Positions 1,276 through 42,800 of a stretch of 47,019 nucleotides of DNA are shown here, piece by piece (within the stretch, counting starts at the first letter, position 1; every line of letters begins with the position of its first letter). Origin of the DNA: Candidatus Aenigmatarchaeota archaeon (GTDB taxonomy: Archaea; Aenigmatarchaeota; Aenigmatarchaeia; GW2011-AR5). The stretch spans positions 78,107-125,125 of the forward strand of contig JACPDL010000004.1 of the NCBI GenBank assembly GCA_016184005.1, in the 5' to 3' direction. The notes beneath the pieces were generated by a model, which searched no databases, was not told the origin of the DNA, and saw only the letters and a list, made by a program, of their open reading frames with translations. The position numbers were made by a program, and so were the translations under genes.

Positions 1276-1689
1276 CTAAAAACTCGATTCAGCAAGTTTG
1301 ATGAGGGGCAAAACAGCCTTCCTAACTTTTTGTCCGTTGTGGGTTAAAGAGTATTCGACGCGTGGCGGCTTCTCGGCAAAAGATTGTCTAGACACCAGCT
1401 TATATCTTTCAAGCTCCTGTAGCCTTTCTGACAATGTTTTCTGTGTTATGCCGTCTATTCTTCTAAGCAGGTCATTGAACCTCAGGCTGCCGAAATTGCC
1501 GATGGTCACAATTATGCTTAGCGTCCACTTTCTGCTCAGGAAAGTGGTCTTTTCCAGAGGCCTCGGGCAATAGCCGCTACCTTTCATCCTGCAAGAATCG
1601 GTTGACATCTGAACGAACTGACGCCGAAGGCGTCGATTTACTCGCGTCTGTCTGCCTTTAGTTACCGCATGTAAACTGGTTTCTGCCAT
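1276..1689 (-). CDS. HxlR-family winged-helix transcriptional regulator
   Basis: HxlR-type MarR-like regulators are dimeric winged-helix proteins that often sense thiol oxidants or reactive electrophiles. The family core is CPRPLEKTTFLSRKWTLSII, then GSLRFNDLLRRIDGITQKTLSERLQELE (recognition helix) and a wing PPRVEYSLTHNGQ. I chose the ATG at 1689 (137 aa), because the longer frame to 1731 needs a TTG start. Met codons 27 and 34 residues further in are alternatives, since the family usually has a shorter N-terminus. Divergent from it are a Cys-rich micro-protein and a CxxC membrane protein, which are the obvious candidates for its regulon. Confidence 0.85.
   Translation of the reverse strand: MAETSLHAVTKGRQTRVNRRLRRQFVQMSTDSCRMKGSGYCPRPLEKTTFLSRKWTLSIIVTIGNFGSLRFNDLLRRIDGITQKTLSERLQELERYKLVSRQSFAEKPPRVEYSLTHNGQKVRKAVLPLIKLAESSF
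1621..1635. repeat. Short palindrome with GAA loop
   Basis: GACGCC-GAA-GGCGTC is a perfect 6-bp stem with a 3-nt loop. It lies inside the N-terminal extension of the HxlR frame. The stem-plus-3-nt-loop form resembles the hairpins of the intergenic arrays in this window, but the sequence is different. Confidence 0.35.
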
Positions 1690-1719: not shown

Positions 1720-1742
1720 AATAGTATACAAAAGAAACTATT
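1720..1742. promoter_or_regulatory. Inverted repeat between HxlR gene and micro-protein gene
   Basis: AATAGT (1720-1725) and ACTATT (1737-1742) form a perfect inverted repeat with an 11-nt spacer. It lies in the divergent promoter between the HxlR regulator and the genes starting at 1760 and overlaps the TATA-like TATTAAAA. It is a plausible operator for the HxlR protein, inferred from position. Confidence 0.5.
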
Positions 1743-1759: not shown

Positions 1760-1894
1760 ATGGCAAGAAGAAAACCATGCTGCACTGGAGGAGTATGCCC
1801 GTCATGCGACTGCTGTATCTGCATATGCACGAAGGACTTGAAGAAAGTCTTGACGCCAGAAGCACGAAAGTTGCTGGTTGAGGCTCTAAGCTAG
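1760..1894 (+). CDS. 44-aa cysteine-rich micro-protein
   Basis: A strong Shine-Dalgarno GGAGG (1748-1752) stands before ATG 1760. The 44-residue product has nine cysteines packed into its first half, including CCTGGVCPSCDCCICIC, followed by a short helical tail. It has no signal peptide. The cysteine spacing suggests metal or persulfide binding. It is divergent from the HxlR regulator and 14 nt upstream of the CxxC membrane protein at 1909, so the two probably form an operon. I do not recognise a named family. Confidence 0.7.
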   Translation: MARRKPCCTGGVCPSCDCCICICTKDLKKVLTPEARKLLVEALS

Positions 1895-1908
1895 GACGCG
1901 GACATAGT

Positions 1909-2424
1909 ATGAAGGAAGGAAAACTAAAACCTATATTTGGTACGATAAAAATTACGCTTAAATCGAGAAAATATTTTTCAGTTGCAATCATATCAGCTCT
2001 TTTCATGCTGTCTCTTTCTGTCTACATCCCTTCAATAATCACGCCAGGAAATTCAATTGGTTACCAGCTTTCTTTGATAACATGGGAAAACGCGCTTCTT
2101 ATACTCTTGTTCTCGGCTTTATTTGGCATTTCTATGGCCATGCACGTCCATGCCACAAAACTGAAAAGAGCTAACAAGGGACTGATGGCGGGCGAAAGCG
2201 CCGCAACCGGAATTTTCGGCATGGTTGGTGCCATGTTCTCAGGGCCTTTGTGCGCCTCTTGCATAAGCATCATCTTCAGCACAATCGGCTTGGGTGGCTC
2301 AGCTGCATTAGCATTGTTTTCTCACCGGACAGAAATTCTTGCTGCGAGCATGATGCTTATAATTGTTTCCATCTACTTCGCCGGAAAAAGAATAAATAGG
2401 TTTTGCGAACACTGTAAAATATGA
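1909..2424 (+). CDS. Integral membrane protein with CxxC motifs
   Basis: This 171-residue protein has about four hydrophobic segments (roughly 22-45, 58-80, 97-135, 143-160). A CASC motif (115-118) sits in the middle of a membrane segment after SGPL, and a second pair, CEHC (166-169), is at the cytoplasmic C-terminal end. The CxxC in a helix resembles the CPFC of the membrane protein at 8606-9109, so both may be thiol-active membrane proteins. It follows the Cys-rich micro-protein by 14 nt and is divergent from the HxlR regulator. Substrate unknown. Confidence 0.75.
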   Translation: MKEGKLKPIFGTIKITLKSRKYFSVAIISALFMLSLSVYIPSIITPGNSIGYQLSLITWENALLILLFSALFGISMAMHVHATKLKRANKGLMAGESAATGIFGMVGAMFSGPLCASCISIIFSTIGLGGSAALALFSHRTEILAASMMLIIVSIYFAGKRINRFCEHCKI

Positions 2425-2470
2425 ATGAAAGCGAAAGATGAAACTGGTGTTGCGCCACATTACTTACGCT

Positions 2471-2608
2471 TCACTTTTTTACAGCGTATTTGATGATTTC
2501 CAGATTGCAGGACTTGTGCTCTGCGCACCATTTCCTGCATTTCTCAGATATAGACTTGTCCTTGTAAAACAGCTTACATTCAGGGCACTGGAAAAGCTTT
2601 GTTTTCAT
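2471..2608 (-). CDS. 45-aa CPEC-type small protein
   Basis: A GGTGAT Shine-Dalgarno precedes the ATG at 2608. The protein starts MKTKLFQCPECKLFYKD and continues through CRKWCAEHKSCNL. The five cysteines (CPEC, C-x3-C, C) suggest a small zinc or metal site. I recall similar small proteins near redox genes in other archaea and bacteria, but cannot name a function. It follows the CDGSH gene by 14 nt in the same orientation. Confidence 0.7.
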   Translation of the reverse strand: MKTKLFQCPECKLFYKDKSISEKCRKWCAEHKSCNLEIIKYAVKK

Positions 2609-2622
2609 GTTACATCACCGCT

Positions 2623-2811
2623 TCAAACTTCGACGCGCTTCTCCTTATCATACGCGTATACTTTATTCTCGTCCTCGTCTTTTGTTCTTTTGTGCGAGCC
2701 GTCACAAAAAGGCTTGCTCCCTGAAAGGCCGCACATGCAGACCCACTTGCTCTCGTTTCCAACTTTAATTTCCATCGGCTGCTGGGATTCGTGCTTGACT
2801 AATCTTGCCAT
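2623..2811 (-). CDS. CDGSH iron-sulfur domain protein
   Basis: This 62-residue protein carries one complete CDGSH domain. The ligand set reads CMCGLSGSKPFCDGSH, giving the C-x-C...C...H ligands of the redox-active 2Fe-2S cluster of the MitoNEET type. It is soluble, with no membrane anchor, as is usual for stand-alone archaeal members. GGTGAG precedes its ATG. It sits between a 2-helix membrane protein with CVTC and the CPEC micro-protein, downstream of thioredoxin reductase. A redox-sensing or electron-transfer role is inferred. Confidence 0.92.
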   Translation of the reverse strand: MARLVKHESQQPMEIKVGNESKWVCMCGLSGSKPFCDGSHKRTKDEDENKVYAYDKEKRVEV

Positions 2812-2815
2812 TATC

Positions 2816-2995
2816 TCACCTCTTTTTTCCTATCATCTTCGATTTTATAAAGGGATAAGCATACGAAAGCAAAATCAGGGCTATTCCTGTTAATTTCATG
2901 CCAAGAACAAAAATAAGGGCAAAACCAATCAGAAGCAGAGCAATCCCTGCTTTCGAACTCGTAGGGCACGTTACACATGTATTTTTTCTGGCCAT
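2816..2995 (-). CDS. Small membrane protein with CVTC motif
   Basis: I start at the ATG 2995 (59 aa) because AGGTG lies just upstream; the GTG at 3007 overlaps that ribosome site. The N-terminus MARKNTCVTCPTSSK carries a CxxC, followed by two predicted transmembrane helices (about 17-33 and 35-50) and a basic tail. It ends 5 nt before the CDGSH gene and follows trxB, so it is probably co-transcribed. The family is unknown to me. Confidence 0.7.
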   Translation of the reverse strand: MARKNTCVTCPTSSKAGIALLLIGFALIFVLGMKLTGIALILLSYAYPFIKSKMIGKKR

Positions 2996-3007
2996 ATTTA
3001 TCAGCAC

Positions 3008-3988
3008 CTATTTTGCTAATTCCTCGTCATTACAGGGGCATACGAATTCATTCTCATTAACATATATGTATGAGGAATAAACACCCACAACAGCCTCGCC
3101 CACACCTGTGATTGCCTGCTTGAATTCTGCGTCGCCGACATCGCCAGCTGCGAATAAGCCTGGTAAATTCGTTTGCGCTTTCCTGTCTATGGTAATTTCT
3201 CCTTTTGCGTTAGTTTTTACGCCGATTGACTGCGCAAGCTGGCTGTTTGGAATCATTCCTATCTCTACGAACACAGCATCTACCACGAATTTTTTGCTGC
3301 CCCTATATTCTTTGTCCAATATAACGTATTCAACTTTGCCAGCGCCGTGAATTTCTTTTACATTTGTGCTACTGATTATCTCGATTTTGCCTTCAGCCAT
3401 TTTCTGTTCTACACGCCTCATGTTCACAGGCTCAGCCCTTATCTTCTCGCCGCGATAAATTATGTACACCTTTCTTGCCCACTGCGTCAGCACAAGCGCC
3501 TCCTTTGCCGCGCTGTCAGAGCCTCCGATCACGGCCACAATTTTATCCCTGTACATAGGGCCGTCGCACAGTCCGCACGAATGCACGCCCTTGTTCTTAA
3601 GCTCTTTTTCACCAGGAACACCAAGCTCGCGATGCTTTGCTCCTGTTGCAAACAGTATAGTTTTTGTGTGAAAGCTTTGATCTTCTGTGAAAACAGTGTA
3701 ACATGACTCACTGCATTTCTCTATTTTTACCGCTTTCTCTTCCACAAGATTCACATCATATTCCATCGCATGCTCCTGAACCTTATCCGCGAGTTCCTGC
3801 CCGGTGATTTTCTTGAATCCGGGATAGTTTTCCACGATGTCAGTCAGCACTATAGTTCCCCCGCTCATTTCCGACAGCACAAGTGTTTTCATGCCCAGCC
3901 TGCCGGCGTACATGGCCCCAGCCATGCCTACGATGCCGCCGCCTATGATTAGAATATCATGTGTAATGTGTTCATGTTTGGTATCCAT
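3008..3988 (-). CDS. trxB: Thioredoxin reductase-like FAD/NADPH oxidoreductase
   Basis: This 326-aa flavoprotein of the low-Mr thioredoxin reductase family reduces a thioredoxin or glutaredoxin with NADPH. It has the FAD motif ILIIGGGIVGMAGAMYAG (13-30), the redox-active CGLCDG (138-143), where CATCDG is more common, the NADPH motif GGSDSA (155-160) and AAGDVGD near 290. The C-terminus carries an unusual CPC pair. It is about the normal length. It heads a minus-strand run to the CVTC membrane protein, CDGSH protein and CPEC micro-protein. The probable partner is the glutaredoxin-like protein at 5403. Confidence 0.9.
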   Translation of the reverse strand: MDTKHEHITHDILIIGGGIVGMAGAMYAGRLGMKTLVLSEMSGGTIVLTDIVENYPGFKKITGQELADKVQEHAMEYDVNLVEEKAVKIEKCSESCYTVFTEDQSFHTKTILFATGAKHRELGVPGEKELKNKGVHSCGLCDGPMYRDKIVAVIGGSDSAAKEALVLTQWARKVYIIYRGEKIRAEPVNMRRVEQKMAEGKIEIISSTNVKEIHGAGKVEYVILDKEYRGSKKFVVDAVFVEIGMIPNSQLAQSIGVKTNAKGEITIDRKAQTNLPGLFAAGDVGDAEFKQAITGVGEAVVGVYSSYIYVNENEFVCPCNDEELAK

Positions 3989-4002
3989 GCTATATCGCCT
4001 TA

Positions 4003-5010
4003 TTAAATTTTATGCTCCTGTTTTTTAACAAGGTTGTCCATCATGTCATAAACAGTCCTTTCCAAACTCCAATCCGGTTTCCAACCCCATTCACTTCGTG
4101 CTGCAGAGTCGTCCATGGAGTCTGCCCAAGAATCAGCTATTCTTTGCCTGACTGGATCTAATTTGAACTCCATTTGGAAATCAGAAATGCCAAATTGTGA
4201 GCCTACTTTTCTGACGACGCCTGCAAGTTCATCTGGTGTAAAGCTGTACGCAGCTACGTTGTAGTCTCCATGATGTTCCAGTCTTTTTCTATCGGCTTCT
4301 GCAAGGTTTATGAGAGCCTTTATGGCATCAGGCATGTACATCATAGGAAGCCTTGTGTCTGCGCCCAGCGGACACTCAAGATACCGGCCTTTACGCACCG
4401 CATCAAAAATCATGTAATTGGCATAATCCGTAGTGCCTGCTGGATTGGGATCTGTTTTCCACGTTAGCAAGCCGGGAAATCTGACGCCTCTTACATCCAG
4501 ATTTACTTCCTGATCTTCGTGTTCAGAGTAGTAATCTGCCCACAGTTCCCCATTGACCTTGGCCATCCCGTACATTGTTCTTGGTCTCTGGCGCGTGTCA
4601 TTCGGCGTATTCTGTCTTGGGGTTTCCATGCCAAACGGTCCCAAGGCAGCTATGGAACTTGGAACAATAACCTTCCCGACATTATTGGCTATACTCGCCT
4701 CCAGAACATTGAACAAACCCAGATAATTCACGTTAAAACCAAGCCTGCGGTTATCCTCTGCGCTTTTAGAAAGCAGGCCTGACATGTGATAAATCGTGTC
4801 AATTCCGTGTTCGGCCAGCGCTTCTTGCAAGCGGCTATAATCAGTGATGTCGAGCGATATAACCGGCCCTGCCTCCGCTATATCTCTTGCGAGAGGCGTT
4901 CTGCCGCTTCCAGCAGCTATTACATTCTCGTACCCATATTTTTTTCTAAGCGCGGGCACAAGCTCTGACCCTATCTGTCCTGCAGCACCTGTTACTAAAA
5001 TTTTTCCCAT
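4003..5010 (-). CDS. L-threonine 3-dehydrogenase (SDR/epimerase type)
   Basis: This 335-aa member of the extended short-chain dehydrogenase family oxidises L-threonine to 2-amino-3-ketobutyrate with NAD+. It shows GAAGQIG (8-14), the catalytic pair Tyr147/Lys151 in YGMAK, and the signatures GTTDYA, DTRLPMMYMPDA and SWADSMDDSAARSEWGWK, which distinguish it from plain UDP-glucose epimerases. ATG 5010 has GGTGAT upstream; an upstream GTG at 5022 overlaps the previous gene. It follows the zinc-ribbon protein and is 14 nt before trxB. Confidence 0.88.
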   Translation of the reverse strand: MGKILVTGAAGQIGSELVPALRKKYGYENVIAAGSGRTPLARDIAEAGPVISLDITDYSRLQEALAEHGIDTIYHMSGLLSKSAEDNRRLGFNVNYLGLFNVLEASIANNVGKVIVPSSIAALGPFGMETPRQNTPNDTRQRPRTMYGMAKVNGELWADYYSEHEDQEVNLDVRGVRFPGLLTWKTDPNPAGTTDYANYMIFDAVRKGRYLECPLGADTRLPMMYMPDAIKALINLAEADRKRLEHHGDYNVAAYSFTPDELAGVVRKVGSQFGISDFQMEFKLDPVRQRIADSWADSMDDSAARSEWGWKPDWSLERTVYDMMDNLVKKQEHKI

Positions 5011-5021
5011 TCTTATCACCA

Positions 5022-5258
5022 CTATCCAACTTTTTCGTATCCTACAACCTCAGTTTTGTTGTATTTACTTGCTGCATAATAAGCCCTTACAGTCTCGCCT
5101 TTGTTATTTATGAAATCAAAATGGCTGGAATTATCGAAGTACGCAATTTTTTGGCAGTTACCACATCTGTATAGCGCCAGCTTCCCGTTTTCCGTTGTTT
5201 CAATTCTATTTCGATGCCCGCATCCCTGGCATGTCAGCGACATAATTTTCTTTTCCAT
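5022..5258 (-). CDS. Small zinc-ribbon-like protein
   Basis: This 78-residue protein has two CxxC knuckles, CQGC near residue 10 and CGNC near residue 32, typical of a zinc ribbon. The rest is mixed and hydrophilic. GGTGAT precedes the ATG at 5258, and a TATA-like TTTAATAGT (plus 5273-5281) lies just upstream, so it appears to head the minus-strand run through ThrDH and trxB. The family is not recognised. Confidence 0.65.
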   Translation of the reverse strand: MEKKIMSLTCQGCGHRNRIETTENGKLALYRCGNCQKIAYFDNSSHFDFINNKGETVRAYYAASKYNKTEVVGYEKVG

Positions 5259-5311
5259 TTCAGATCACCGAACAACTATTAAATTTGCCTAAGAAAAAAA
5301 CCAAAAAAACT

Positions 5312-5377
5312 TCACGCGCCGCAGCATTTGCTCGCTGGCTTGCCTGAGCCGCAACTGCATTTCTTTTCTTTTTTCAT
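5312..5377 (-). CDS. 21-aa SEC-C-motif micro-protein
   Basis: A strong GGAGGTG Shine-Dalgarno stands before the ATG at 5377. The 21-codon frame encodes a basic start followed by CSCGSGKPASKCCG, which is the SEC-C zinc-binding motif (CxCGSG...CC) found at the C-terminus of SecA and in small proteins. Here the motif is almost the whole protein. It lies 25 nt after the glutaredoxin gene. The ribosome site and motif support translation, though no homolog search was possible. Confidence 0.6.
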   Translation of the reverse strand: MKKEKKCSCGSGKPASKCCGA

Positions 5378-5402
5378 ACAAGACACCTCCACAAAATTTC
5401 AA

Positions 5403-5639
5403 TTATGCTTTCACTGCAAGCGCATTTTCAATTGCTTGCTTGTCGAAGCCGGTTATTATTTTTCCGTTTATGTCTATCACCGGCACACCCATCTGATGAC
5501 TTTTCGCCACCATCTCTGCTGCAGCCTTCGGATTTGTCTCCACGTTAAGCTCTTCATACTTGACGCCTTTTTTCTTGAAGAAATCCTTTGCCATCCTGCA
5601 GTAGGGACATGTTGTTGTCGTGTAAATCTTTACCGTCAT
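5403..5639 (-). CDS. Glutaredoxin/NrdH-like redoxin
   Basis: This 78-aa thioredoxin-fold protein starts MTVKIYTTTTCPYCRMAKDF, with the CPYC dithiol at the end of strand 1 and the cis-proline motif GVPVIDINGK near residue 52. The length is that of NrdH/glutaredoxin 3. ATG 5639 is preferred because the upstream GTG at 5648 is itself part of the AGGTGA ribosome site. It probably accepts electrons from the trxB product. A palindromic sequence at 5695-5711 lies upstream. Confidence 0.9.
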   Translation of the reverse strand: MTVKIYTTTTCPYCRMAKDFFKKKGVKYEELNVETNPKAAAEMVAKSHQMGVPVIDINGKIITGFDKQAIENALAVKA

Positions 5640-5694
5640 GCTAATCACCTATTATAGAATGAGCTTTGGGGTGTATAAACTTTGTATTTTAGTA

Positions 5695-5711
5695 TTAAAT
5701 CTAAGATTTAA
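5695..5711. promoter_or_regulatory. Palindromic operator-like site upstream of the redoxin gene
   Basis: TTAAATC-TAA-GATTTAA is a perfect 7-bp inverted repeat with a 3-nt spacer, about 56 nt upstream of the redoxin ATG. A near copy, TTAAATTTCGGATTTAA, occurs at 8563-8579 between two other thiol genes. The pairing suggests a shared regulator, but AT-rich promoter sequence can match by chance. Confidence 0.4.
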
Positions 5712-5770
5712 CTGCGAAATTGGCACAGCAGGTATAGAAAAATAAAAAATTCTCTTGATAGTGACTATAA

Positions 5771-5983
5771 TTACACGATGCTCCAAGATATCCGAAGAAA
5801 ATAGCTAGCCAGGATAAGTGCAATGCCTGCTATTACAATGTACTTTTCTTTTTTCATTTCCCTGAACGCATGTTTGTCGATCTTCTTTTCACTCGATACT
5901 CTGCCATGGACAAGCAGGACACTTACTGCTATAAGTAACTCGCCTATGATCTCGATTGTCAGCGCAATAAATTCTAGTGACAT
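5771..5983 (-). CDS. Small two-helix membrane protein
   Basis: This 70-residue protein has two hydrophobic helices (about 4-26 and 48-66) separated by a charged loop, HGRVSSEKKIDKHAFREMKKEK. There are no cysteines or catalytic motifs. It is 16 nt downstream of the alpha/beta hydrolase gene in the same direction. Function unknown. Confidence 0.6.
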   Translation of the reverse strand: MSLEFIALTIEIIGELLIAVSVLLVHGRVSSEKKIDKHAFREMKKEKYIVIAGIALILASYFLRISWSIV

Positions 5984-5999
5984 ACTTTATCCTTATTTT

Positions 6000-6767
6000 C
6001 TAATGACATGTTTTCCTGAACCAGTCCAAAATTATTTTCTGCGCCATCTCCAAATGTCCTGGGTCTGAGAACATATGATCGGCGCCGTCTATTATATGAA
6101 TCTCTTTCTGCCCCTTTGCATAAGAGTACAATTTCATTGCGTTTTCAACAGGAATAATGCTGTCAAGGCCTCCATGAACAACACAAAATGGCTTCGTGAA
6201 GGTTCTCAGCGACTTCTCTATACTGTGTTTTTCAGCGTCATCAAAAAATTCCTTTGTCATTGTAAGTTTTCTTGAGAATATATTTACTTCCGCCCTTCCT
6301 TTCGAATAGATTTCTTTCAGCGTGGCATCAGAAAATATGGTTTTTATTGATGAGGATTCTGCCGGGCTGCCTACAACACACAGTGAAGATACTCTGGTGT
6401 CTATGGCACTGTGTAGTATCGAAACAGCAGCACCCATGGAATGCCCCAAAACACCAAAACTGCTGGCATTTTTTGTCGACAGAAAGGAAATAGCCGATTT
6501 CAGGTCGCTTATTTCCTTTGAGTAAGTTGCGTCTTCGAACCTGCCCTCACTCTCCCCATTGCCTGAGAAATCAAACCGGAGGACAAGAAAACCGCTTTCT
6601 GCCAGCGTATCGCAAATATTGCGCATTATTTTCTGGTGCCTGGAACACGTAAAGCAGTGCGCAAGCGCAATGCTTTTATCGTAGTCACCTGCTGGTAAAT
6701 GAAGAAAGCCTGACAGTCTTTCTTTCGACGCATTATAAAAATATACGGATTCTTCCATAATAACCAT
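6000..6767 (-). CDS. Alpha/beta hydrolase
   Basis: This 255-aa protein is a serine hydrolase of the alpha/beta fold. The nucleophile elbow GHSMG is near residue 109, the acid Asp lies in HGGLDSIIP and the catalytic His in GADHMF near the C-terminus. LRFDFSGNGESEG is a typical oxyanion-side loop of the family sometimes fused to or near OsmC proteins. There is no signal peptide, so it should be cytoplasmic. The substrate, an ester or acyl compound, cannot be told from sequence. Confidence 0.88.
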   Translation of the reverse strand: MVIMEESVYFYNASKERLSGFLHLPAGDYDKSIALAHCFTCSRHQKIMRNICDTLAESGFLVLRFDFSGNGESEGRFEDATYSKEISDLKSAISFLSTKNASSFGVLGHSMGAAVSILHSAIDTRVSSLCVVGSPAESSSIKTIFSDATLKEIYSKGRAEVNIFSRKLTMTKEFFDDAEKHSIEKSLRTFTKPFCVVHGGLDSIIPVENAMKLYSYAKGQKEIHIIDGADHMFSDPGHLEMAQKIILDWFRKTCH

Positions 6768-6804
6768 TCACGGCTGCATTAAAATAAATAAAAAACAAAA
6801 AAGA

Positions 6805-6879
6805 CTAGCAACCACAACTGCTTGTTTTAGAGCTGTGTCTGCTGTGCGCTTCGTCGGAATGCTTCAACTTTTTCTTCAT
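6805..6879 (-). CDS. 24-aa micro-ORF ending in CGC
   Basis: GGTGATTG sits two bases before the ATG at 6879. The 24-codon frame is rich in Lys, His and Ser and ends SSCGC. It is short and has no known domain, but the ribosome site is as strong as those of neighbouring genes. It lies between the hydrolase and the TlpA-DUF3179 gene. Treat it as a candidate. Confidence 0.4.
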   Translation of the reverse strand: MKKKLKHSDEAHSRHSSKTSSCGC

Positions 6880-6956
6880 TTCAATCACCGTCTATGAATT
6901 ATTTCCACTATAGATGAAGCTGATCTTGAAGAGTACAATTTATGCTTTAAGAAAAA

Positions 6957-8450
6957 TCATTTGTATAATTTCGTATCTGGATAGAAAGCCGCCCATGCAA
7001 ACCAGAAATGCGGAAAGCTATCAACGCGCGCCAGCACCCTATCTAATTCTTCTATTGTCCATATCTTGCCCGAAGAATCCGTCAATATTCCATTTTTAAT
7101 GGAGAAATCGCCTGGAGAATGGTATATTCGACCTGTGGCCAGCGACTGATCCCACAATACAAGTACCTTCTGCCCGCCCACATTATCATTTATTGCGACT
7201 GCAGATTTGATAGCCTGCTCCTCATACGCTTTTGCTTTGCCGTTAATCACAATACCATACACTATCGAATTTGAAGGAAGCCGTGTATCCGTGAAGCTCA
7301 CGCCTATGCCCGAGAATCCAGGCCTGTCTGTGCCGTAAAGATCTACAATATCGTAGCGGCCTGTTGTCAGATAGGTGGGAAAGCCTGTGTCTCTTGACAG
7401 TACCAGAGTATCAGGATGCTGCGCTCTCCAGTCTTTCCATCTCACAGTGTCGACAGGTATGGCTTTTAGTTTCACGCCTGCTAGATCGCCTTTTATTCCC
7501 TGGCCGAGTACCTGCGACCAGTATGTTTCTGTTTTTCTGTCGTACATGACCAAATCAGATTTGTATAACTTCCCAGATGTCCCAAATTCTACGGTTTCGC
7601 CGTTAATAATTCTTTCATAAACAATCCCGGTCCTGCACAATGGGCAGTACGTAACAGCAATAGGCGTGTTATTTGCAAAGTCATTCACAATTTCATGCCA
7701 GTTGAGAATTCTGTGCGGATATGCTTTGACAGCGCCATTAAAAGAAAGCCCAAGCACAAGGTCGTCATCATTCAGCCATTTGTCTGCTTCTGCCACGTTT
7801 TCGAATTTCGGGCTGTCTATGCTTGGTATGCCGTCCTTCGGCGGGCCGCCTGACAATATTTCTGCCGGGTTAACAGATGCAAGATATTTCTCGCCGTTTA
7901 TGATTTTTACCCCTGCCGACGCTGCGATGGCGACTTTAAGAGATCCTATTTTTTGAAGCAGTTCTTCTTCTGTCAATGGGCCAAATTTTTTATCAACAAT
8001 TATGCCGTTAGCATCAATAAAGTAAGTGACAGGCTGGGTGAATACATTATACTTCTTCTTAGCGTCTGCCTCCGGGTCAAGCAATATCGGAGATTTTATC
8101 CCAAGCTTGTTTGCAAAACTCATTGCAGCGTCTCTGCTCTCCTGCAGATTGATAAACAAAAGTTGCGCATCATTTTCTTTCGCTACCCGCTCAAGCAGCG
8201 GCATTTCCTCGACGCAAAACGGACACCAAGAAGCCCAGAAGTTAACTATCAAAGGCTTTCCACGAAAGTCTGACAAAGAAACAGGTCTGCCATCAGGCGT
8301 TTGCAGCGTGAAGTCAGGCGCCTGCTCGCTTGTCTGGCTTTCTTCAGACTTCTCTACAGGCTTTGCGGCGTAGAAAATGATTGCAGCCAGAACAATTAAC
8401 GCTACAGCACCATAGGTGTATTTTTTATATGAAATGCGCTTCTTTTTCAT
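6957..8450 (-). CDS. Membrane-anchored TlpA-like thioredoxin fused to DUF3179
   Basis: The 497-aa protein has an N-terminal anchor (about 13-30) and then a TlpA/ResA-type thioredoxin domain with FWASWCPFC (CPFC at 76-79) and TQPVTYFID (cis-Pro). A DUF3179 domain covers roughly 205-490. It includes YCPLCRTG (CPLC at 269-272), paired cysteines that may be substrates of the thioredoxin domain. The domains would lie outside the membrane. ATG 8450 follows GGGGTCGTGA; a GTG at 8456 is an alternative. DUF3179 has no assigned reaction; the fusion links it to extracytoplasmic dithiol chemistry. Confidence 0.88.
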   Translation of the reverse strand: MKKKRISYKKYTYGAVALIVLAAIIFYAAKPVEKSEESQTSEQAPDFTLQTPDGRPVSLSDFRGKPLIVNFWASWCPFCVEEMPLLERVAKENDAQLLFINLQESRDAAMSFANKLGIKSPILLDPEADAKKKYNVFTQPVTYFIDANGIIVDKKFGPLTEEELLQKIGSLKVAIAASAGVKIINGEKYLASVNPAEILSGGPPKDGIPSIDSPKFENVAEADKWLNDDDLVLGLSFNGAVKAYPHRILNWHEIVNDFANNTPIAVTYCPLCRTGIVYERIINGETVEFGTSGKLYKSDLVMYDRKTETYWSQVLGQGIKGDLAGVKLKAIPVDTVRWKDWRAQHPDTLVLSRDTGFPTYLTTGRYDIVDLYGTDRPGFSGIGVSFTDTRLPSNSIVYGIVINGKAKAYEEQAIKSAVAINDNVGGQKVLVLWDQSLATGRIYHSPGDFSIKNGILTDSSGKIWTIEELDRVLARVDSFPHFWFAWAAFYPDTKLYK

Positions 8451-8452
8451 AT

Positions 8453-8518
8453 TCACGACCCCTTAAGAATGCTACAGAATGTGCAAGCAGATTTTCGCCT
8501 TGATTTTTTCTTTTCCAT
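8453..8518 (-). CDS. 21-aa micro-ORF with CTFC motif
   Basis: This 21-codon frame encodes a very basic start (MEKKKSRRKS) and then ACTFC. It ends inside the start region of the TlpA-DUF3179 gene, in an overlapping arrangement that suggests translational coupling. It has no clear ribosome site and could be leaderless. Low confidence, but it fits the pattern of CxxC micro-proteins in this island. Confidence 0.3.
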   Translation of the reverse strand: MEKKKSRRKSACTFCSILKGS

Positions 8519-8605: not shown

Positions 8606-9109
8606 ATGGCGGAATTTATGAGCCGCATTGATATGACTACGATAAAACAATTCCTGACTGTGATGTTCCAAGCCATAGACGAACATCCCAAGCGGTTTTT
8701 TCTTGGCTTTGCGATAATGGGGCTCGTTCAATACATATTCCTCACGCCCAGCATATGGCCGATCAGGGCGCCGAATAATCCGGTAGTAACTAATGACTGG
8801 GTATTCGCATTCCTGTTCGCATTTTTCACAGGCGCATTTCTCGCCATGCGAAGGCATATCAAGGACAAGCCAAAAGTATGCTCTGTTACTGGGGGAATAG
8901 GCAGCGTAATCGGGATATGGGGAGCAACATGTCCGTTCTGTACGCTTTTCATACTGGTATGGTTAGGCGTGCCGGCAGCAACCGGCGTGCTTAGCGCACC
9001 GTTCCTGGAAAGCTACCTCGACCTAATAAGACTAGGTGCGCTTGCCGTAATGATATACGGCATGAGCCTTCTGGTTAAAAAGCAAAATATTGTGCCTGAA
9101 GTTAGTTAA
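8606..9109 (+). CDS. Membrane protein with CPFC motif
   Basis: This 167-residue protein has about four transmembrane segments (near 32-50, 67-83, 95-128, 138-156). CPFC lies inside the third, in WGATCPFCTLFILVWLGVPA. The same CxxC-in-helix layout occurs in the protein at 1909-2424, and CPFC repeats the motif of the divergent thioredoxin-fusion gene. It may exchange electrons or disulfides across the membrane, somewhat as CcdA/DsbD proteins do, but it is not recognisably of that family. Confidence 0.72.
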   Translation: MAEFMSRIDMTTIKQFLTVMFQAIDEHPKRFFLGFAIMGLVQYIFLTPSIWPIRAPNNPVVTNDWVFAFLFAFFTGAFLAMRRHIKDKPKVCSVTGGIGSVIGIWGATCPFCTLFILVWLGVPAATGVLSAPFLESYLDLIRLGALAVMIYGMSLLVKKQNIVPEVS

Positions 9110-9166: not shown

Positions 9167-9829
9167 ATGAAACATACAGTCGTCGCTCCTGCAGGCGACA
9201 ACATCGATGCGCTTTTCATCGGCGTCAGGGAATTTCCCACGGAAAAAGTAGTGTTGATTACGCCAAAAAGATACGCAAGCGAAGCTGCTCGTGCGCAAAA
9301 GGAGCTGAAGAAATTCAGGATACCCGTCAAGATAATCGACATCGATGAATCATGGGAGTCCATCTTCAGGGCAATTGCGGAGATAAAATCCAGCGCTGAA
9401 AATATTCTTGTGAACGTTGCCACAGGGGACAGGGACGGCCAGTGTGCCGCCACTTCTGCTGCTTTTGTAAACGGCCTCAAGGCCTTTTCCATAGACAAGG
9501 GCGAGGCGATGATGCTGCCAGTCCTGAAATTCTCGTACTACAAAATGATACCAGAGAGGAAGCTCCTGATATTGAAAACATTGAAGCAGGACAAGACATG
9601 CTGCGCGTCCTTTGAGGAGCTTTCGCGCAGGCTGAATATGAGCCTGCCGCTTGTGTCGTACCATATAAACGGGAATGCGAAATCAGAGGGTCTTGTACAG
9701 ATGGGGCTTGCAGATGTTACAGAGAAAAAAGGCAGAATGGAAATAACATTAACACCGCTTGGCAAACTTCTCATTGATGGCCACATAGAAACTAAAGACG
9801 ACAAACGGTGGTTCCGACGCGCAAAATGA
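9167..9829 (+). CDS. DUF6293/Csa3-like regulator with CARF-like and winged-helix domains
   Basis: This 220-aa protein has an N-terminal Rossmann-like domain that resembles CARF sensors. It opens with MKHTVVAPAGDNIDAL, and VNVATGDRDGQCAATSAAF (about 84-102) is the expected ligand loop. A winged-helix domain follows, with CCASFEELSRRLNMSLPLVSYHI as helix-turn-helix. Such haloarchaeal and euryarchaeal regulators (HFX_2341 type) are relatives of Csa3, but not all are CRISPR-linked, and no CRISPR or cas gene lies in this window. The nucleotide ligand is unknown. An IS605-like palindrome lies just downstream. Confidence 0.75.
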   Translation: MKHTVVAPAGDNIDALFIGVREFPTEKVVLITPKRYASEAARAQKELKKFRIPVKIIDIDESWESIFRAIAEIKSSAENILVNVATGDRDGQCAATSAAFVNGLKAFSIDKGEAMMLPVLKFSYYKMIPERKLLILKTLKQDKTCCASFEELSRRLNMSLPLVSYHINGNAKSEGLVQMGLADVTEKKGRMEITLTPLGKLLIDGHIETKDDKRWFRRAK

Positions 9830-10130: not shown

Positions 10131-10256
10131 ATGACATGCATTATATGCGGAAGCCCGTCAAACCTTTTTGGCACAAAAGGATGCATAACCGTTTCTTACT
10201 GCATCTATCACGCGGAAGACTGCGTGAGTGCTGACGCATCCTGCAAGTGTGGATAA
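10131..10256 (+). CDS. 41-aa cysteine-rich protein
   Basis: Starting at ATG 10131, this 41-codon frame has seven cysteines: CIIC, a single C, C near His (YCIYHAEDC), and CKCG at the very end. It probably binds zinc, in two sites. CTTATAAG about 30 nt upstream could be a TATA box. No family is recognised. Confidence 0.5.
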   Translation: MTCIICGSPSNLFGTKGCITVSYCIYHAEDCVSADASCKCG

Positions 10257-10320: not shown

Positions 10321-10471
10321 TGCTCCCGGCGGGATTTGAACCCGCGCCATCGGCTTTCTTCCACCAAGTTTGTCATCATTCGCTTCGCGAACTCATACCT
10401 TTCAAACAGGAAAGTTTTTTGCTTATCCTCTCGAAAGGCCGAAATCCTTGACCGGGCTAGACGACGGGAGC
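10321..10471 (-). tRNA. tRNA-Glu (UUC) with a 76-nt intron
   Basis: Read on the minus strand, the 5' exon starts GCTCCCGTCG and the 3' exon ends CCGCCGGGAGC plus discriminator A at 10321. The anticodon stem TCGGC/GCCGA closes the loop C-U-UUC-G-A. The intron occupies 10356-10431, at the canonical position between 37 and 38. CCA is not encoded. The T-loop TTCAAAT and the acceptor stem are complete. A TATA box TTTTTAAAA (10497-10505) is centred about 30 nt upstream. Confidence 0.93.
10356..10431 (-). other. tRNA-Glu intron (canonical 37/38 site)
   Basis: This is the sequence between G37 and A38 of tRNA-Glu. It contains a small hairpin TTCGC-TTC-GCGAA (plus strand) and a second pairing CTTTC/GAAAG. 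Removal by the archaeal splicing endonuclease requires a bulge-helix-bulge at the junctions, which I have not modelled in full. Confidence 0.8.
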
Positions 10472-10849: not shown

Positions 10850-10868
10850 ATAGTATAAAATAGACTAT
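10850..10868. promoter_or_regulatory. Operator site 2, ATAGT-N9-ACTAT
   Basis: ATAGT (10850-10854) and ACTAT (10864-10868) repeat the exact pattern and spacing of site 1. The right arm runs into the ATG of the endonuclease gene at 10867 (ACTATG). Centres of the two sites are 36 bp apart. Binding here would block the TATA-like GTATAAAATAG and the start codon. Confidence 0.6.
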
Positions 10869-11601
10869 GATTAATTTATCAAAGGTTATTTTTAGCCATA
10901 ATGATAAGAAAAGATCTATAGTTCTTCCTGATAATTTTACTCCTGAATTAGCTGAAGATGTAGGTTTTCACATTGGTGATGGATATATGAAAAATCGTGT
11001 TGAGAAAACTGGTATTCATTATGAATTTGCTTATTCTGGGAATTATCCAGAAGATATTGATTATTTTAAGAATATATTAATTCCACGAAAACACGTTCTA
11101 TTTAACCTAACTAATTTAGAAATAAAGAAAGAAAAGAAGAACGCAATAATCCTAAAGATACGATCTAAAGCTATTTTTTTGTATTATAGAGACATCTTAA
11201 AGGTAAAAGAGTCTCCTAAAACTGATATAGAAATTCCTAAGTGGGTTTACAGTTCACTTGAGTTACAAAAATCTGTTTTCCGCGGCTTAATTGATTCTGA
11301 TGGGAATTTCAGAATAGTCAAGAAAGGATACCCAATTATTGACTTGCAAGTTCAGAGCCAGCACGTTGTAGAAGGAATGGGAAAAATATTGAAAACGCTT
11401 GAAATACCATTTAGTTCCTTTAGAATAAAACAATTAGATAAAAGAAGCGGTAAAATTTGTATTAAGTTTAGAATTCAGATTAGTGGTAGGAAAAATGTAA
11501 CTAAATGGATAAGTCTAGTAGGGTTCAATAACCCAAAACATATTCGGAAATATGATAAATGGGTCGAGGCGGATTCGAACCGCCGGTCTTCGCCTCATTA
11601 G
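10867..11601 (+). CDS. Free-standing LAGLIDADG homing endonuclease
   Basis: The 244-aa protein has two LAGLIDADG helices: DVGFHIGDGYM (about 31-41) and FRGLIDSDGNF (about 138-148), each with the acidic metal ligand. That is a monomeric two-motif layout. It is not in frame with an intein and not inside a tRNA intron. Its last 14 codons (WVEADSNRRSSPH) are antisense to the 3' exon of tRNA-Val, and its TAG stop lies in that tRNA intron, so the gene apparently inserted against the tRNA and reads into it. AT-rich codon use marks it as acquired. Confidence 0.88.
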   Translation: MINLSKVIFSHNDKKRSIVLPDNFTPELAEDVGFHIGDGYMKNRVEKTGIHYEFAYSGNYPEDIDYFKNILIPRKHVLFNLTNLEIKKEKKNAIILKIRSKAIFLYYRDILKVKESPKTDIEIPKWVYSSLELQKSVFRGLIDSDGNFRIVKKGYPIIDLQVQSQHVVEGMGKILKTLEIPFSSFRIKQLDKRSGKICIKFRIQISGRKNVTKWISLVGFNNPKHIRKYDKWVEADSNRRSSPH

Positions 11602-11696
11602 GAAAGAAGTAATTTGCTTCTTTCTTTCCTACGTCCCAAAAAGCAAAGCTTTTTGAGGATGTAAAGGCGACGTCATAGCCGCTAGACTACCGACCC
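11560..11696 (-). tRNA. tRNA-Val (UAC) with a 64-nt intron
   Basis: On the minus strand the acceptor GGGTCGG (from 11696) pairs with TCGACCC, with discriminator A at 11560. The anticodon stem TCGCC/GGCGA encloses U-U-UAC-A-A after splicing, and the T-arm is GGCGG-TTCGAAT-CCGCC. The intron (11596-11659) is at 37/38. Anticodon bases UAC pair with GTA in the intron, as in the canonical exon-intron helix. The 5' end overlaps the Nudix gene, whose stop TAG is tRNA bases 8-10, and the 3' end is antisense to the endonuclease gene. Confidence 0.93.
11596..11659 (-). other. tRNA-Val intron containing an array-type hairpin
   Basis: The intron contains CAAAAAGC-AAA-GCTTTTTG (plus 11637-11655), the same stem as hairpin H1 of the intergenic arrays at 12593, 15684, 19602 and 23360. 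It also has a second stem, GAAAGAAG/CTTCTTTC. The first hairpin extends the helix that follows the anticodon pairing. Confidence 0.8.
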
Positions 11697-12713: not shown

Positions 12714-13193
12714 TTATTTCCATCCAGCTGCCTCCTTTCTTTTTATTTCTTCAATCTCGTAGCCAAGCATGTTCTTGTACCCGTCATCATAATAGAATTT
12801 TCCCTGGAAGCTTTTGCCTTCAAGCATGACAGGTATCCATATTTCATCGTCGGGCCACATCGCATCCAGCGGGATGCCGTCAAGCGGGAACCATTCCGGC
12901 ACGCCTTCGTCTGTTTCCGTTGGAGTCCCGGAAAAATCATTTGCAACGAAAATGTGGGCTTCCATCGCACACTCGCCTCCGATGTAGAATTCATTGCGGC
13001 CCACATGCTTTATACCGAGAGGCGTTACGCCGGTTTCTTCGATTGTTTCCCTTATTGCAGCATCGGCAGGCGATTCCCCCTTCTCAATGTGGCCGCCGGG
13101 GCCGTTCCATTTGCCTTCGCTTATGCCGCGCTTGCTCTTTATGAGAAGTATCCTGCCATCTTTTATCACATAAAGAAGGGTTACGTCTTTCAT
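12714..13193 (-). CDS. Nudix hydrolase (3 of 3), 8-oxo-dGTPase-like
   Basis: The 159-aa protein has KWNGPGGHIEKGES followed by AAIRETIEETG, the Nudix box in a context (WNGPGGH.E.GE) close to MTH1/MutT-type 8-oxo-dGTP diphosphatases. The C-terminal half contains MWPDDEIWIP and FQGKFYYDDG, also seen in that subgroup. It overlaps the histidine phosphatase gene by 4 nt (ATGA), so the two are translationally coupled. A nucleotide-pool-cleaning role is inferred. Confidence 0.9.
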   Translation of the reverse strand: MKDVTLLYVIKDGRILLIKSKRGISEGKWNGPGGHIEKGESPADAAIRETIEETGVTPLGIKHVGRNEFYIGGECAMEAHIFVANDFSGTPTETDEGVPEWFPLDGIPLDAMWPDDEIWIPVMLEGKSFQGKFYYDDGYKNMLGYEIEEIKRKEAAGWK

Positions 13194-24344: not shown

Positions 24345-26867
24345 TCAATAAACTTTAGCTTTTAGAATAAGTTCTGCTTCCTTTCTCAGTGCTTCTGCCT
24401 TGTCTGTTTTTTCCCAGGAGAATGTGTCTTCCTCGCGTCCGAAGTGGCCGTAAGCTGCTGTCTTCTGGTATATGGGCCTTCTAAGCTGCAGCGTGTCTAT
24501 TATGCCTTTTGGTCTCAGGTCAAAATGCTTTCTCACTATCTCCGATATCTTATCTTCAGGTATTTTGTTTGTGCCAAAGCAGTCAACATTCACCGAAATT
24601 GGCTGGGCAACTCCAATGGCATATGATATCTGGACCTCGCATTTGTCGGCAAGGCCTGCTGCTACAATATTCTTTGCAACATAGCGCGCAGCGTAAGCAC
24701 CGCTTCTGTCGACCTTTGTAGGATCTTTTCCTGAATTATGGCAGACAAATCCGTTAGCCACAAAAGTATGGGCTCCCGGAACTGTTATATCAAATACATC
24801 CGACCTTGAGTTCTCCGTACGATGAATTCTTGTATAGTAATGGCCCATGATGTATAGCGTACGCAGGTACTCGAAATCTAAATCGCCTTCGAAAAGGTCT
24901 GCATACGTGTCCAAGAAATCCCTTAATTTGTGGTAAGTCAGTTCTTTTGTAGCCTTTCCTTCAGAGCTTCTCGCAAGCCTGCCGATTTTGCATTTGTCTG
25001 CCTGTTTTGTTCTGGTTGGGAGCTTGTTCCAAAGTTTCCTTATACGCTCTCTTTGATGCGGTACTATAATTCTATCTGATTTTGTAGACAGTGCGATAGA
25101 GTTCAAGATCCTTTTCTTTCTGTTCAAATTAAAACCTATGTTATCCTTGAACAATTTTACACTTTCGTGGCCTTTAATGCGAAGATGATATAATGTCCTC
25201 CGGGAGGTTACTTTTCTTCCTTTGATTTCTGCTGATTTCCCATTTGTGAATACAGTCTGAATATTAGATATTATGCCGAAATTAAGCAGAAGCTGCTGTA
25301 CAGAAGTCGCAATGTCAAAAGATGTGGTTGTGAGCTTCACATCCAGAGAATTTTTACTCCTGCCTGTTTTTCTTACAGTGCCGTCTGTATCAAAAAGCCC
25401 GCGCAAAAATGCTGCCACAACGTTGCTTGGAGATTTGAATAAAGAATGCGGAACTTTCTTCTGCCATGATCGCCATTTTCCTAGGCCTAAGTATTCTAGG
25501 AAAGCCCTTAACTCAATGCCACCGAAATATGCCCAATGGCCGAATACCTTTCCTTCTTTTCCAAAAAGCTTGTTGAAAAGGCCCTGCACATTTTTCTTTT
25601 GCTCATCTTCACAAACACATACTGCTATAGCGCCGTTCATCATGCAGTTGCCGTCTCCGACAAGTAAGCCCAGCAGGTATGCATAGTCTTCTGTTAATAA
25701 ACTCGGAAACTGGAAGACATTGTGTCTCCTTGTGCCTTTTTTGTGCAGGAATTTAAAGGCAGAAGCATCGAAGCCTTTCCCAAAAAGTCTGTTCTTCTTT
25801 TGGATTGCGATCCAGTCAGAAGGCTTTAGCTCGTCGAGCCTTCGCCATTTATAGTTGCCGTTTTCGTCGATGAGCCTTATTGCCTGATTTTCTGTCCCTT
25901 CCAGTTCATAGCCATCTTTTGTAAAAACCTTTATGGTTTCCATTTCACCATTGTTAAACCATTTTTCTGCATTTGTTGGTGATATATCAGTCTTTACGGT
26001 CAGTTTTTCTCCTACGATTTCTTTGAGTCTTTCTATTGGTATAAGGCCATTTTCTGTATTTACCAAACTATTGCCTGATATGCAAAATGCGCCGCCGCCA
26101 TGACGGCCTACGCCGCCATAAGTATCAACTATGATCTTCCTGCCTGTCAGTCCTGTGTCGCCCTCGGGTCCGCCGATCACGAATTTTCCCGTAGGATTCA
26201 CAAAGAACTTAGTATTTTCATCTATGTAATCTCCGCATATAGGCTTGATGACTTTCTCAATCATGTCGTTCCTGATTGTTTCGATCTCGACGTGTTCCTT
26301 GTGCTGTGTAGAAATAACAACCGTATCCACTCTCTGGGGCTTTCCGTTGCTGTATTCGACAGTGACCTGCGACTTGCCGTCTGGACCAATATAATCGACT
26401 GTTCCTGACTTCCTAACCTCTGCCAGGCGGCGAACAAGCTTGTGTGCTAATATTATAGGCAACGGCATCAGTTCCTTCGTCTCATTGGTCGCAAAACCAT
26501 ACATCATTCCCTGATCGCCTGCGCCTTGTTCTTTTCCTTCTTTTTCATCAACCCCCGTGGCTATGTCAGGCGATTGCTCATGAATTGAAACTAGAACGCC
26601 TGCGTCATTGCAGTCTATTCCGTATGTTGGATCCGTATAACCTATTTCTCTTAGTGTTTGCCTCACTATTCTTTGCACGTCAACGAAGCCTTTCGTGGTT
26701 ACTTCCCCGGCAACAACAACAAGGCCTGTTGTTGTCAACGACTCTACAGCTACACGAGAATAAGGATCCTGCTTGTAAAGTTCGTCAAGGATGGCGTCGC
26801 TGATTTGGTCGCATATTTTATCAGGGTGACCTTCTGTCACACTCTCGCTTGTTACAAACTCTTTCAT
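24345..26867 (-). CDS. metK: S-adenosylmethionine synthetase, bacterial type, with intein
   Basis: After splicing this would be a 390-aa MetK making SAM from methionine and ATP. The N-extein starts [20 protein letters not shown] and carries [20 protein letters not shown] and [12 protein letters not shown]. The C-extein has [20 protein letters not shown] and [15 protein letters not shown]. This is the bacterial/eukaryotic MetK family, not the divergent archaeal MAT. A 450-aa intein splits the GGGAF|SGKDP ATP-binding loop. ATG 26867 begins the conserved start. Confidence 0.95.
24735..26084 (-). other. MetK intein with LAGLIDADG domain (450 aa)
   Basis: The intein starts [20 protein letters not shown] (Cys1, block A) and ends with [10 protein letters not shown], followed by Ser+1 of the extein. 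Thr and His of block B can be placed near GTENQAIRL. It contains two endonuclease motifs, [11 protein letters not shown] and [11 protein letters not shown], so it appears to be a full homing intein. Removal restores the unbroken [14 protein letters not shown] loop, which is nearly invariant in MetK. I know of no commonly listed MetK intein. Confidence 0.93.
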
Positions 26868-39867: not shown

Positions 39868-42800
39868 TTACCCTGTATACGAGACCTCTTCTTCTATCTT
39901 CTGCGCTTTCCTTTTTTTCATTATCGATTCGTAGAAGGCGTTCATGTCTTCTGTGACAGAGGGCTTTACATATTTCAGCGCGGCGGCAAAGTCGCGGTTT
40001 GTAACGATATCGGCGTCTAGGTTCCTTCTCATGGCATTGATAGCGGCTTCCCTGACAAGGGCTTCCAGGTCTGCGCCTGAGTAGCCTTCCGTATCTTGCG
40101 CAAGTTTTTTGAGATCCACGTCCTTCGCCAGTGGAACGTTTGCCGTATGCACCTTGAGTATTTCATATCTTGATTTTTCCTGGGGCGTCGGTACAAGAAC
40201 CTGCCTGTCAAACCTGCCCGGTCTCAGAAGAGCCGGATCTATTATGTCCGGCCTGTTTGTTGCAGCTATCACGACAACGTCGTGTAAATCCTCAAGTCCG
40301 GATATTTCTGCAAGAAGCTGTGAAACTACGCGCTCAGTGACGTTCGACTCGGATCCATAGCTTCTTCTGGGTACAAGCGCGTCTATCTCGTCGAAAAATA
40401 TAATGCACGGTGCGACTTGCTTCGCCCGGCGGAAAACGTCCCTTACATGATGCTCGCTTTCGCCTACCCACATTGAAAGGAGCTCGGGGCCTTTTACTGA
40501 AATGAAATTAGCTCCGCTCTCGTTTGCGACTGCTTTTGCAAGCAATGTTTTTCCGCATCCAGGCGGGCCATAAATCAGGACGCCTACAGGCGGCCTTATG
40601 CCAAGCTTTGTGAAAGACTCCGGGCGCTTCAGCGGCCACTCAACAACTTCTTTCAGTTCCTGCTTGATGTTTTCCAGGCCGCCGATATCATCCCACTTTA
40701 CCTTCGGGACTTCTATGAGGACCTCTCTCATGGCTGAAGGCTCTACCATTTTCAGCGCATATTCGAAGTCTTCCTTGTTGACTATAAGTTTTTTCAGAAC
40801 GTCCTGGGGGATTGGCTTGTCCTCGCGCATCGCTTCCATGTCAGGCAACACCCTGCGCAATGCGTGCATGGCTCCTTCCTTGCACAACGCATTAAGATCT
40901 GCCCCTACATAACCGTACGTTATCTCGGCTATCTTGTCCAGCTCCACGTCTTTTGCAAGCGGCATTCCCCTTGTGTGAATCTGGAGTATCTCCAGCCTTC
41001 CCTGCTTGGACGGAACGCCAAGCTCTATTTCCCTGTCGAATCTTCCCGGCCTTCTCAATGCAGGATCCAGTGAGTTGGGTATGTTTGTGGCGCCTATGAC
41101 TATTACTTTTCCCCTTGACTTCAACCCGTCCATCAGCGTAAGCAGCTGCGACACCACTCGTTTTTCCACTTCGCCTTTCACCTCTTCCCGCTTCGGCGCA
41201 ATGGCGTCTATCTCGTCGATGAAAATTATGCTTGGAGAATTTTTGTCTGCCTGCTCGAATACCTTCCTTAGATTTTCCTCGCTGTTGTGAGCAAAAAGAC
41301 CTCCGAAGCCCGCTACAAAGTTTTCATTTGGGTTAACTGAAACGTCGTATACGTTTCCCGAATAGTTTATCTCGTTCTTTTGCGTTACCTTATCCCAGAA
41401 GATGTCAGACTCTATGATCTTCCAGACATCCGCATGCTTTTCCTTCTGTGGATCTATTTTTGCCATCTCTTTTTTAAGAATTTCCTTTCCAATTCTTTTC
41501 GAGTTTGACCAGGCATTTAGTTTTTTATTTGACTTGATTATTTCCCTGAGCCCAGGCCAAATAGGTACCGGTTGCGTCTTGTCGAATTTCTTATTTTGCA
41601 GATAATTCCTTATCCTGTCATTCCTTTTCTCGTCAAGGAAGCCTGTTTTTGAGAATTTTTCAAAGCCTTCAGGGCTCTGTATCAGTACGCGATACTTTGT
41701 CTTGCCGTTGTATTTCTCCTTGGTTTCGACGCACTTTGCAACTATCCCGAAATAAAGCAGCGTGTACATAAGGCTGTTTGCAAGCTTTTTGCTGTGTGTG
41801 CTTCCTTCGATAGTATGCGCCATTTTCGGCGGATAGACACTACCGTCGCCTGTGAAGTAGCCGCGCAGCATAGCTTCTACAAGGTTCAGCGGCATAGACA
41901 TAAGCTTGGATGTGATTTCCTTATTCTCCGCACCAGTTTGAATGCCAAGTATCTTTTCAAAAACAATTTTCAGTGGCTTTGAATTTAGCAGCATATCATC
42001 CTGATATTCAGTCAGCTTTATGCCATATTTCTTGCAAAGCCTTCTTACAACTTCTTTGGATTCCTGCAACTGGTTAGTTATCCTTATAGCGTCTTTTGTC
42101 GTATAGGAGCCTTCTGCCAAAAATAAACCGATAACCGTGGCCAAATCTTCGTCTATTTTGATTGTTGGTGGCAGCTTGCCAGCGTTTTGCTTTGCGACTA
42201 TTCCAAGTTCATCGTAAGCAATGCTCATCCCGCTTTCTTTTGCAAGCGAAAGGAAGTTCTTGATGCTTATGCACACGTTCTTTCCGTAGACGTCATAAAC
42301 ATATTTTTCTTTTATCCTGAGTATTTCGGCCGCCTTCTTTATTCCGACTTTCTTTACAAATTCCTTTATCTGCGGGCTTCTTACTTTCAGCTCTTCGCTT
42401 TCAGAAAGCTCTTGAAGTATATTTATTTCTTTGTAGCTTTGTGGCGCAGGCAGTATTGAAGGAACAGCTAGGTAAGTTTCTCCTGGTTTTATCTCTTTTG
42501 TTTTTAGATCCGATACCTTCCCATCTTTGAGCGCAAATAAAGAGTGGTAATCTGTGACCTTGATCGTTCTTCCAGTCGATGTCTTAATCTCATATATTTT
42601 CTTGCCTTTCTGGAAAGGATGCTCAATGAAGCCCTTAATTTGTCCTTTCTCTACTTGCCCTTTTTTGTCAAATTCAGCGACGTTTTCTGCTGATTTTGAT
42701 TTCACTACTTCCCCGATGCTCTTCAACGACGCATGGCCATTTTCTATTGTGAATATGCTCTCGTCAGGTGTCAGCGACTCGCCATAAAATTTGGACATTA

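Follow-up and report, generated by a model that had tools for sequence, protein, structure and literature searches.

A 44-residue protein with eight cysteines, designated m1, apparently represents an undescribed family within a conserved regulator-microprotein-membrane protein module. It was found in a window of 47,019 nucleotides, the whole stretch of DNA analysed here, from a 0.92-Mb, 94% complete MAG of a Candidatus Aenigmatarchaeota archaeon. No Pfam family is matched by any of the 22 members of the m1 family, the window copy has no NCBIfam match, and no paper on the family was found in the literature searched. We consider m1 the most valuable part of the finding; what it binds or carries is something that we infer.

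The m1 gene is one of five very small frames (m1 to m5; 44, 45, 21, 24 and 21 codons) which a first-pass annotation had reported as one set of cysteine microproteins, four with Shine-Dalgarno (SD) sites, interleaved with redox genes. Checked against the sequence and its ORFs, all five are present at the coordinates in Table 1, with the Cys motifs first described. SD sites were confirmed for m1, m2, m3 and m4, and m5 has none. The redox neighbours were also as described, with the glutaredoxin, CDGSH and HxlR genes assigned by PF00462, PF09360 and PF01638, the TrxB-type gene by Pyr_redox_2, and the TlpA-DUF3179 gene confirmed as a fusion. The comparison was with 300 dinucleotide shuffles of the island's intergenic DNA (1,295 bases). 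Counting frames with an ATG start and a Cys pair and taking at least 5 matching bases as an SD, four such frames with an SD were observed versus 0.02 expected (0.02-0.07 as a range), and 0 of 300 shuffles reached four. Taken as a set, m1 to m4 are therefore not random. With the SD criterion dropped, five Cys-pair frames were observed versus 0.98 expected, which places m5 alone within chance. The shuffle test bears on the occurrence of frames and is silent on function.

Table 1. Features of the window discussed in the text, in order of position.
Feature	Position	Strand	Remarks
HxlR-family regulator	1276..1689	-	winged-helix domain present; PF01638 E 2.3e-22, 79.1 bits (cutoff 20.8)
Candidate operator AATAGTATACAAAAGAAACTATT	1720..1742		between HxlR and m1; near-identical block in L066, L067, L068, L071, L045
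m1	1760..1894	+	44-aa microprotein, 8 Cys; 22 homologous loci, purifying selection, conserved neighbours
4-TM membrane protein	1909..2424	+	14 bp after m1; intramembrane CxxC and C-terminal CxxC, by alignment
m2	2471..2608	-	45-aa protein, CxxC...CxxWCxxHxSCN; conserved frame
CDGSH iron-sulfur protein	2623..2811	-	PF09360 E 3.9e-10, above cutoff
59-aa membrane protein	2816..2995	-	N-terminal CVTC, from sequence; no Pfam match
TrxB-type flavoprotein	3008..3988	-	CGLC; PF07992 E 4.5e-43; 80% identical copy in L050
78-aa zinc-ribbon-like protein	5022..5258	-	weak zinc-ribbon matches only
m3	5312..5377	-	21-aa stand-alone SEC-C-like peptide, CxCGSGx5CCG; homologues in several relatives
Glutaredoxin	5403..5639	-	CPYC; PF00462 E 2.3e-20
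m4	6805..6879	-	24-aa frame ending SSCGC, directly downstream of TlpA-DUF3179; good SD; status uncertain
TlpA-like thioredoxin fused to DUF3179	6957..8450	-	PF11376 E 4.3e-91 and AhpC-TSA
m5	8453..8518	-	21-aa frame; no SD; count within shuffles
Second CPFC membrane protein	8606..9109	+	same broad family as the 1909..2424 protein, by alignment
CARF-like (HFX_2341/Csa3-type) regulator	9167..9829	+	HTH; PF19810 E 3.5e-7; in 5/22 m1 loci
m6	10131..10256	+	sixth Cys microprotein, 41 aa, outside the original five

On the sequence evidence, m1, m2 and m3 are genuine genes, and their conservation extends across DPANN archaea from groundwater. The grouping of all five frames as a single set therefore stands in part: m1, m2 and m3 recur in other families with neighbours of similar types (HxlR, CPxC membrane protein, TrxB, glutaredoxin, CDGSH and TlpA-DUF3179), m1 and m2 also in other phyla, whereas membership is unsupported for m5, lacking both an SD and conservation, and so far for m4. 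A check of frame conservation divides the frames in the same way, with no convincing homologue of m4 or m5 in any locus read and none of m5 upstream of other DUF3179 genes.

The m1 protein has the pattern CCx4CPxCxCCICIC followed by an LTPEARKLL helix; its eight Cys fall within 17 residues, and the conserved C-terminal helix is Cys-free. When the 22 loci, which are spread over two DPANN phyla, are aligned, seven Cys are invariant and the eighth is nearly so. Ten loci, on contigs of DPANN MAGs from the public set, hold homologues 67-84% identical to the window's m1; the contig titles read Woesearchaeota, Aenigmatarchaeota or DPANN group, in most cases one of the first two. Whole-genome searches detected m1 in 4 of the 156 genomes of the window's class, leaving out a discounted match in G080 (E 0.0066, with a stop inside), and in 15 of the 371 genomes of the Woesearchaeota phylum set. 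The other member of the genus that was searched (one genome, 84% complete) gave no match to m1, and neither did a viral scan or plasmid scans, the last of which were negative for m2 as well. The distribution is patchy and likely reflects gain and loss or transfer. High Ka/Ks or broken frames had been named as the mark of chance frames, and this does not hold for m1, in which nonsynonymous change is far below synonymous: pN/pS is 0.08-0.22 against the window copy and averages 0.17 over all pairs, with synonymous sites near saturation. The copy in L072 has no in-frame ATG and was read as a frameshift or assembly error. The structure model of m1 has a pLDDT of 70 and no PDB fold match; a profile search of the PDB returned only CagY repeats, aligned to the LTPEARKLL helix at an i-Evalue of 4.8 or worse, and this was taken as convergence.

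Genes within 5 kb of m1 were compared between the 22 loci and 20 control regions from m1-bearing genomes, one of which (L169) itself holds a similar island. HxlR is found near m1 in 17/22 loci and the CPxC 4-TM membrane family likewise in 17/22, each versus 0/20 controls, and m2 in 10/22 versus 1/20. In 12 of the 13 loci with a divergent HxlR gene, 69-92 bp separate it from m1, the thirteenth having m2 in between, and the membrane gene lies 0-48 bp downstream of m1 in 10 loci. Three loci with no HxlR nearby (L064, L073 and L146) carry an ArsR-type gene directly upstream of m1, and the L064 regulator scores above the HTH_metalloreg cutoff. The true start of the window HxlR is probably the ATG at 1689, and residues C33 and C41 are invariant in all 15 m1-linked HxlR proteins aligned. 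The block between HxlR and m1 is put forward as a candidate operator solely by virtue of its cross-species conservation, AATAGTATAYAAAAGAAACTATT recurring with slight changes in six loci. The window's own genome has one exact copy only of the operator-like block, and palindromes within single intergenic regions were mostly no more frequent than in shuffles. In the m1-linked membrane protein the intramembrane CxxC is CASC in the window and CPxC in most homologues; the model of this protein (pLDDT 72) has no structure match at E ≤ 0.001. A profile comparison of this family with MerC-like proteins, at 79% probability, spanned just 31 columns around the CPxC, too few to assign homology, and the window's own membrane proteins matched no MerT/MerC/MerP-type family.

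The m2 gene was detected in 23 of the 97 genomes searched, its own included, and in six of eight further m1-bearing genomes. It is constrained (dN 0.12, dS 2.0 against G010) and matches no curated family above the cutoff. Of the 17 loci read, 12 have m2 at most 3 kb from TrxB, glutaredoxin, P-ATPase, HMA, HxlR or a CPxC protein, a count made without a matched control. The SEC-C motif (PF02810) is the C-terminal zinc site of SecA. The m3 peptide is like it in having CxCGSGx5CC and unlike the usual SEC-C in that the motif makes up nearly the whole protein, including relatives of 18-39 aa in other genomes. Against PF02810, m3 itself reaches 16.2 bits (cutoff 20.4), and its relatives in L091 and L084 reach 21.8 and 23.7. 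The relative in G051 is beside CDGSH, and that in G030 adjoins a CARF/HTH gene and a run of CPxC, TlpA, MerA-like and ArsR-like genes.

At the m4 position in G114, between TlpA-DUF3179 and glutaredoxin, is a 23-aa six-Cys frame with a strong SD, MECSMCGHEHEGKVCDCGCQPPQ (L151:7395-7466 (+), also L099:2995-3066), which is unrelated to m4 and is suggestive only. The m5 frame is probably a chance frame or untranslated leader; a weak match within a larger ORF of L069 (E 0.015) was taken as chance. Additionally, m6 has a homologue in G030 (L149:5156-5296; 46% identical, E 2e-8), located between a CARF-like gene and a CPxC membrane/TlpA/MerA-like cluster, next to the m3 relative. Two 42-aa frames with an N-terminal CPMxxC and a hydrophobic tail are present at L050:9341-9469 and 12862-12990 (-), one adjoining TrxB and the other glutaredoxin.

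The related islands have a soft-metal and thiol context. L067 and L070 each have a MerA that passes the NCBIfam cutoff and carries a CC pair at its C terminus, and a third, unscored, is found in L066; at 3/22 loci MerA is not significant versus controls, and the same is true of MerT-like genes (3/22) and P-ATPases (2/22). GDCCVxC is above cutoff in L147 and L148, which also hold MerC-like genes; MerT-like genes occur in L145 and L148, L071 has a MerT above the Pfam cutoff, and L072 a near-cutoff MerC match beside HxlR. The MerT/MerC-like matches in several related loci are mostly below NCBIfam cutoffs. Heavy-metal P-type ATPases are above cutoff in L068 and L073, and other m1-linked genes encode HMA, cupredoxin, DsbD, TlpA, TrxB and glutaredoxin. 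DsbD/CcdA, present in 6/22 m1 loci, is the exception among the rare individual neighbours, with p = 0.014 uncorrected versus controls. A caveat for reading these genes as mercury genes is that in Staphylococcus a MerA under HypR control acts on thiol stress as a flavin disulfide reductase (PMC6943732). The MerA-type proteins scored here exceed the cutoff for mercury(II) reductase and fall well short of that of the hypothiocyanous acid reductase MerA model. In the window's own genome merA, a gene expected in a mer operon, was not found (no MerA-like match at E ≤ 1e-50), and a P-type-ATPase-like gene with a YHS-like start, named from its sequence only, is located in L062 beside a paralogous CPxC membrane protein. 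The first-pass annotation had proposed a thiol or metal-persulfide system. Its metal and thiol part agrees with the MerA, MerT/MerC-like, GDCCVxC, CopA-type ATPase, HMA, DsbD and ArsR neighbours, and its persulfide part is unsupported: rhodanese, TusA and DsrE are absent among the 25 most frequent of the 65 Pfam families in 91 neighbour proteins.

Judged from its residues and surroundings, the probable role of m1 is soft-metal binding or thiol handling. The reading that we favour, with somewhat better than even confidence, is an HxlR-controlled module in which m1 would buffer a soft metal (Hg/Cu) or pass it to the membrane protein, both the metal and the carrier role being inferred. The core of such an inducible module would be a two-Cys HxlR (ArsR/SmtB-type in some genomes), m1 and a CxxC/CPxC 4-TM protein, and m2 often comes next. 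Modification of the two HxlR Cys, whether by soft metals (Hg(II), Cu(I)) or by thiol-reactive agents, may release the operator, and this would induce m1 together with the membrane protein. Metal could then be bound by the eight clustered m1 thiolates in the manner of a metallothionein and be handed over, or the cytosol be protected from it, and the C-terminal helix may dock on the membrane protein or on some other partner. The module thiols would be kept reduced by TrxB and glutaredoxin, and m2 and m3 might act in these islands as small accessory proteins that bind metal. A bolder form, which we advance only tentatively, is that m1 is the founder of a new archaeal family of micro-metallothioneins or soft-metal chaperones which, with its CPxC partner under HxlR, provides DPANN archaea with mercury or copper tolerance in the absence of a mercuric reductase.

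A carrier, a buffer and a regulatory co-factor would all fit the m1 data. Counting against a metal role, no one metal gene is shared by most m1 loci, the window's own genome lacks MerA, and the DsbD/CcdA, TrxB and glutaredoxin neighbours fit pure thiol redox chemistry equally well. The m1 peptide might instead be redox-cycling, or the electron acceptor of a CPxC/DsbD-type membrane conduit fed by TrxB and glutaredoxin, in a thiol-disulfide module that answers disulfide stress, not metals. This is in keeping with DsbD/CcdA adjoining m1 in several loci, with TrxB and glutaredoxin in the window, L064, L065 and L067, and with the HxlR/DUF24 regulators YodB and HypR, which sense disulfide or electrophile stress via an N-terminal Cys (PMC6943732). 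However, eight clustered thiolates with CC and CxC motifs would be unusual in a redox carrier, HxlR is replaced by an ArsR-type regulator in three loci, and mercury and copper genes recur; we regard the redox explanation as rather unlikely. The constant presence of m1 beside a regulator gene, with few exceptions, and its conserved non-Cys C-terminal helix would also suit a co-factor delivering a metal or thiol signal to HxlR/ArsR, like the role proposed for small TRASH proteins in Sulfolobus mer operons, but the downstream membrane protein is linked to m1 equally tightly and m1 is unchanged with two unrelated regulator families, making this improbable. Chance ORFs or untranslated leaders would be a suitable reading of m5, with neither SD nor homologue, and of m4, with no homologue; for m1, m2 and m3, constrained and conserved across families, m1 and m2 across phyla, this reading is hardly credible.

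Metallothioneins are small, Cys-rich soft-metal proteins. Like them, m1 is small and dense in CC, CxC and CxxC thiolates (8 Cys in 17 residues); unlike them, it has no Pfam family match in 22 members, carries a conserved Cys-free C-terminal helix and is linked to HxlR and a CPxC membrane protein, and its metal binding is putative. The mer operons of archaea have been characterized as simple, those of Sulfolobus having stand-alone TRASH proteins (PMC3466566). In some m1 loci, too, a small Cys protein is next to MerA or an ArsR-type regulator, but m1 matches neither TRASH nor any other Pfam domain, MerA is missing from most m1 loci, and the usual partner of m1 is a membrane protein. The HxlR/DUF24 thiol-stress regulons of YodB and HypR in Bacillus (PMC6943732) share an HxlR-family regulator, a conserved N-terminal Cys and local targets with the m1 module, in which the regulator differs in having two invariant Cys 8-9 residues apart and a Cys microprotein and a membrane protein take the place of detoxifying oxidoreductases as local targets. 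The C(P)XCG zinc-finger micro-proteins of Haloferax, for many of which metal binding has been shown (PMC11241148), are likewise archaeal proteins of <70 aa with Cys pairs, although m1 and m2 lack two C(P)XCG motifs and the Cys pattern of m1 is denser. Annotation readily overlooks very small genes, and genetic work on DPANN archaea is scarcely possible; the m1 family, at 44 residues, with constant neighbours, seven or eight constant Cys and a candidate operator, can be made and tested cheaply. The m1 family could show how archaea with reduced genomes handle toxic soft metals or thiol stress.

N-terminal Cys-cluster proteins (CACC, CSCC), divergent to an HxlR gene that m1 does not directly adjoin, are encoded at L072:8669-9115 (+), this being the near-cutoff MerC match, and L045:8308-9576 (-). 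Elsewhere in the window, Rfam tRNA matches at 10321-10471 and 11560-11696 (-) span 151 and 137 bases, long enough for introns, and ARAGORN in bacterial mode finds neither; the ORF between them (10867-11601, +) has no Pfam match at 1e-5. Two inteins with LAGLIDADG domains are also present, one in an S-adenosylmethionine synthetase of 840 aa (24345-26867, -) and one at the N terminus of an AAA+ ATPase ORF of 976 aa (39868-42798, -).
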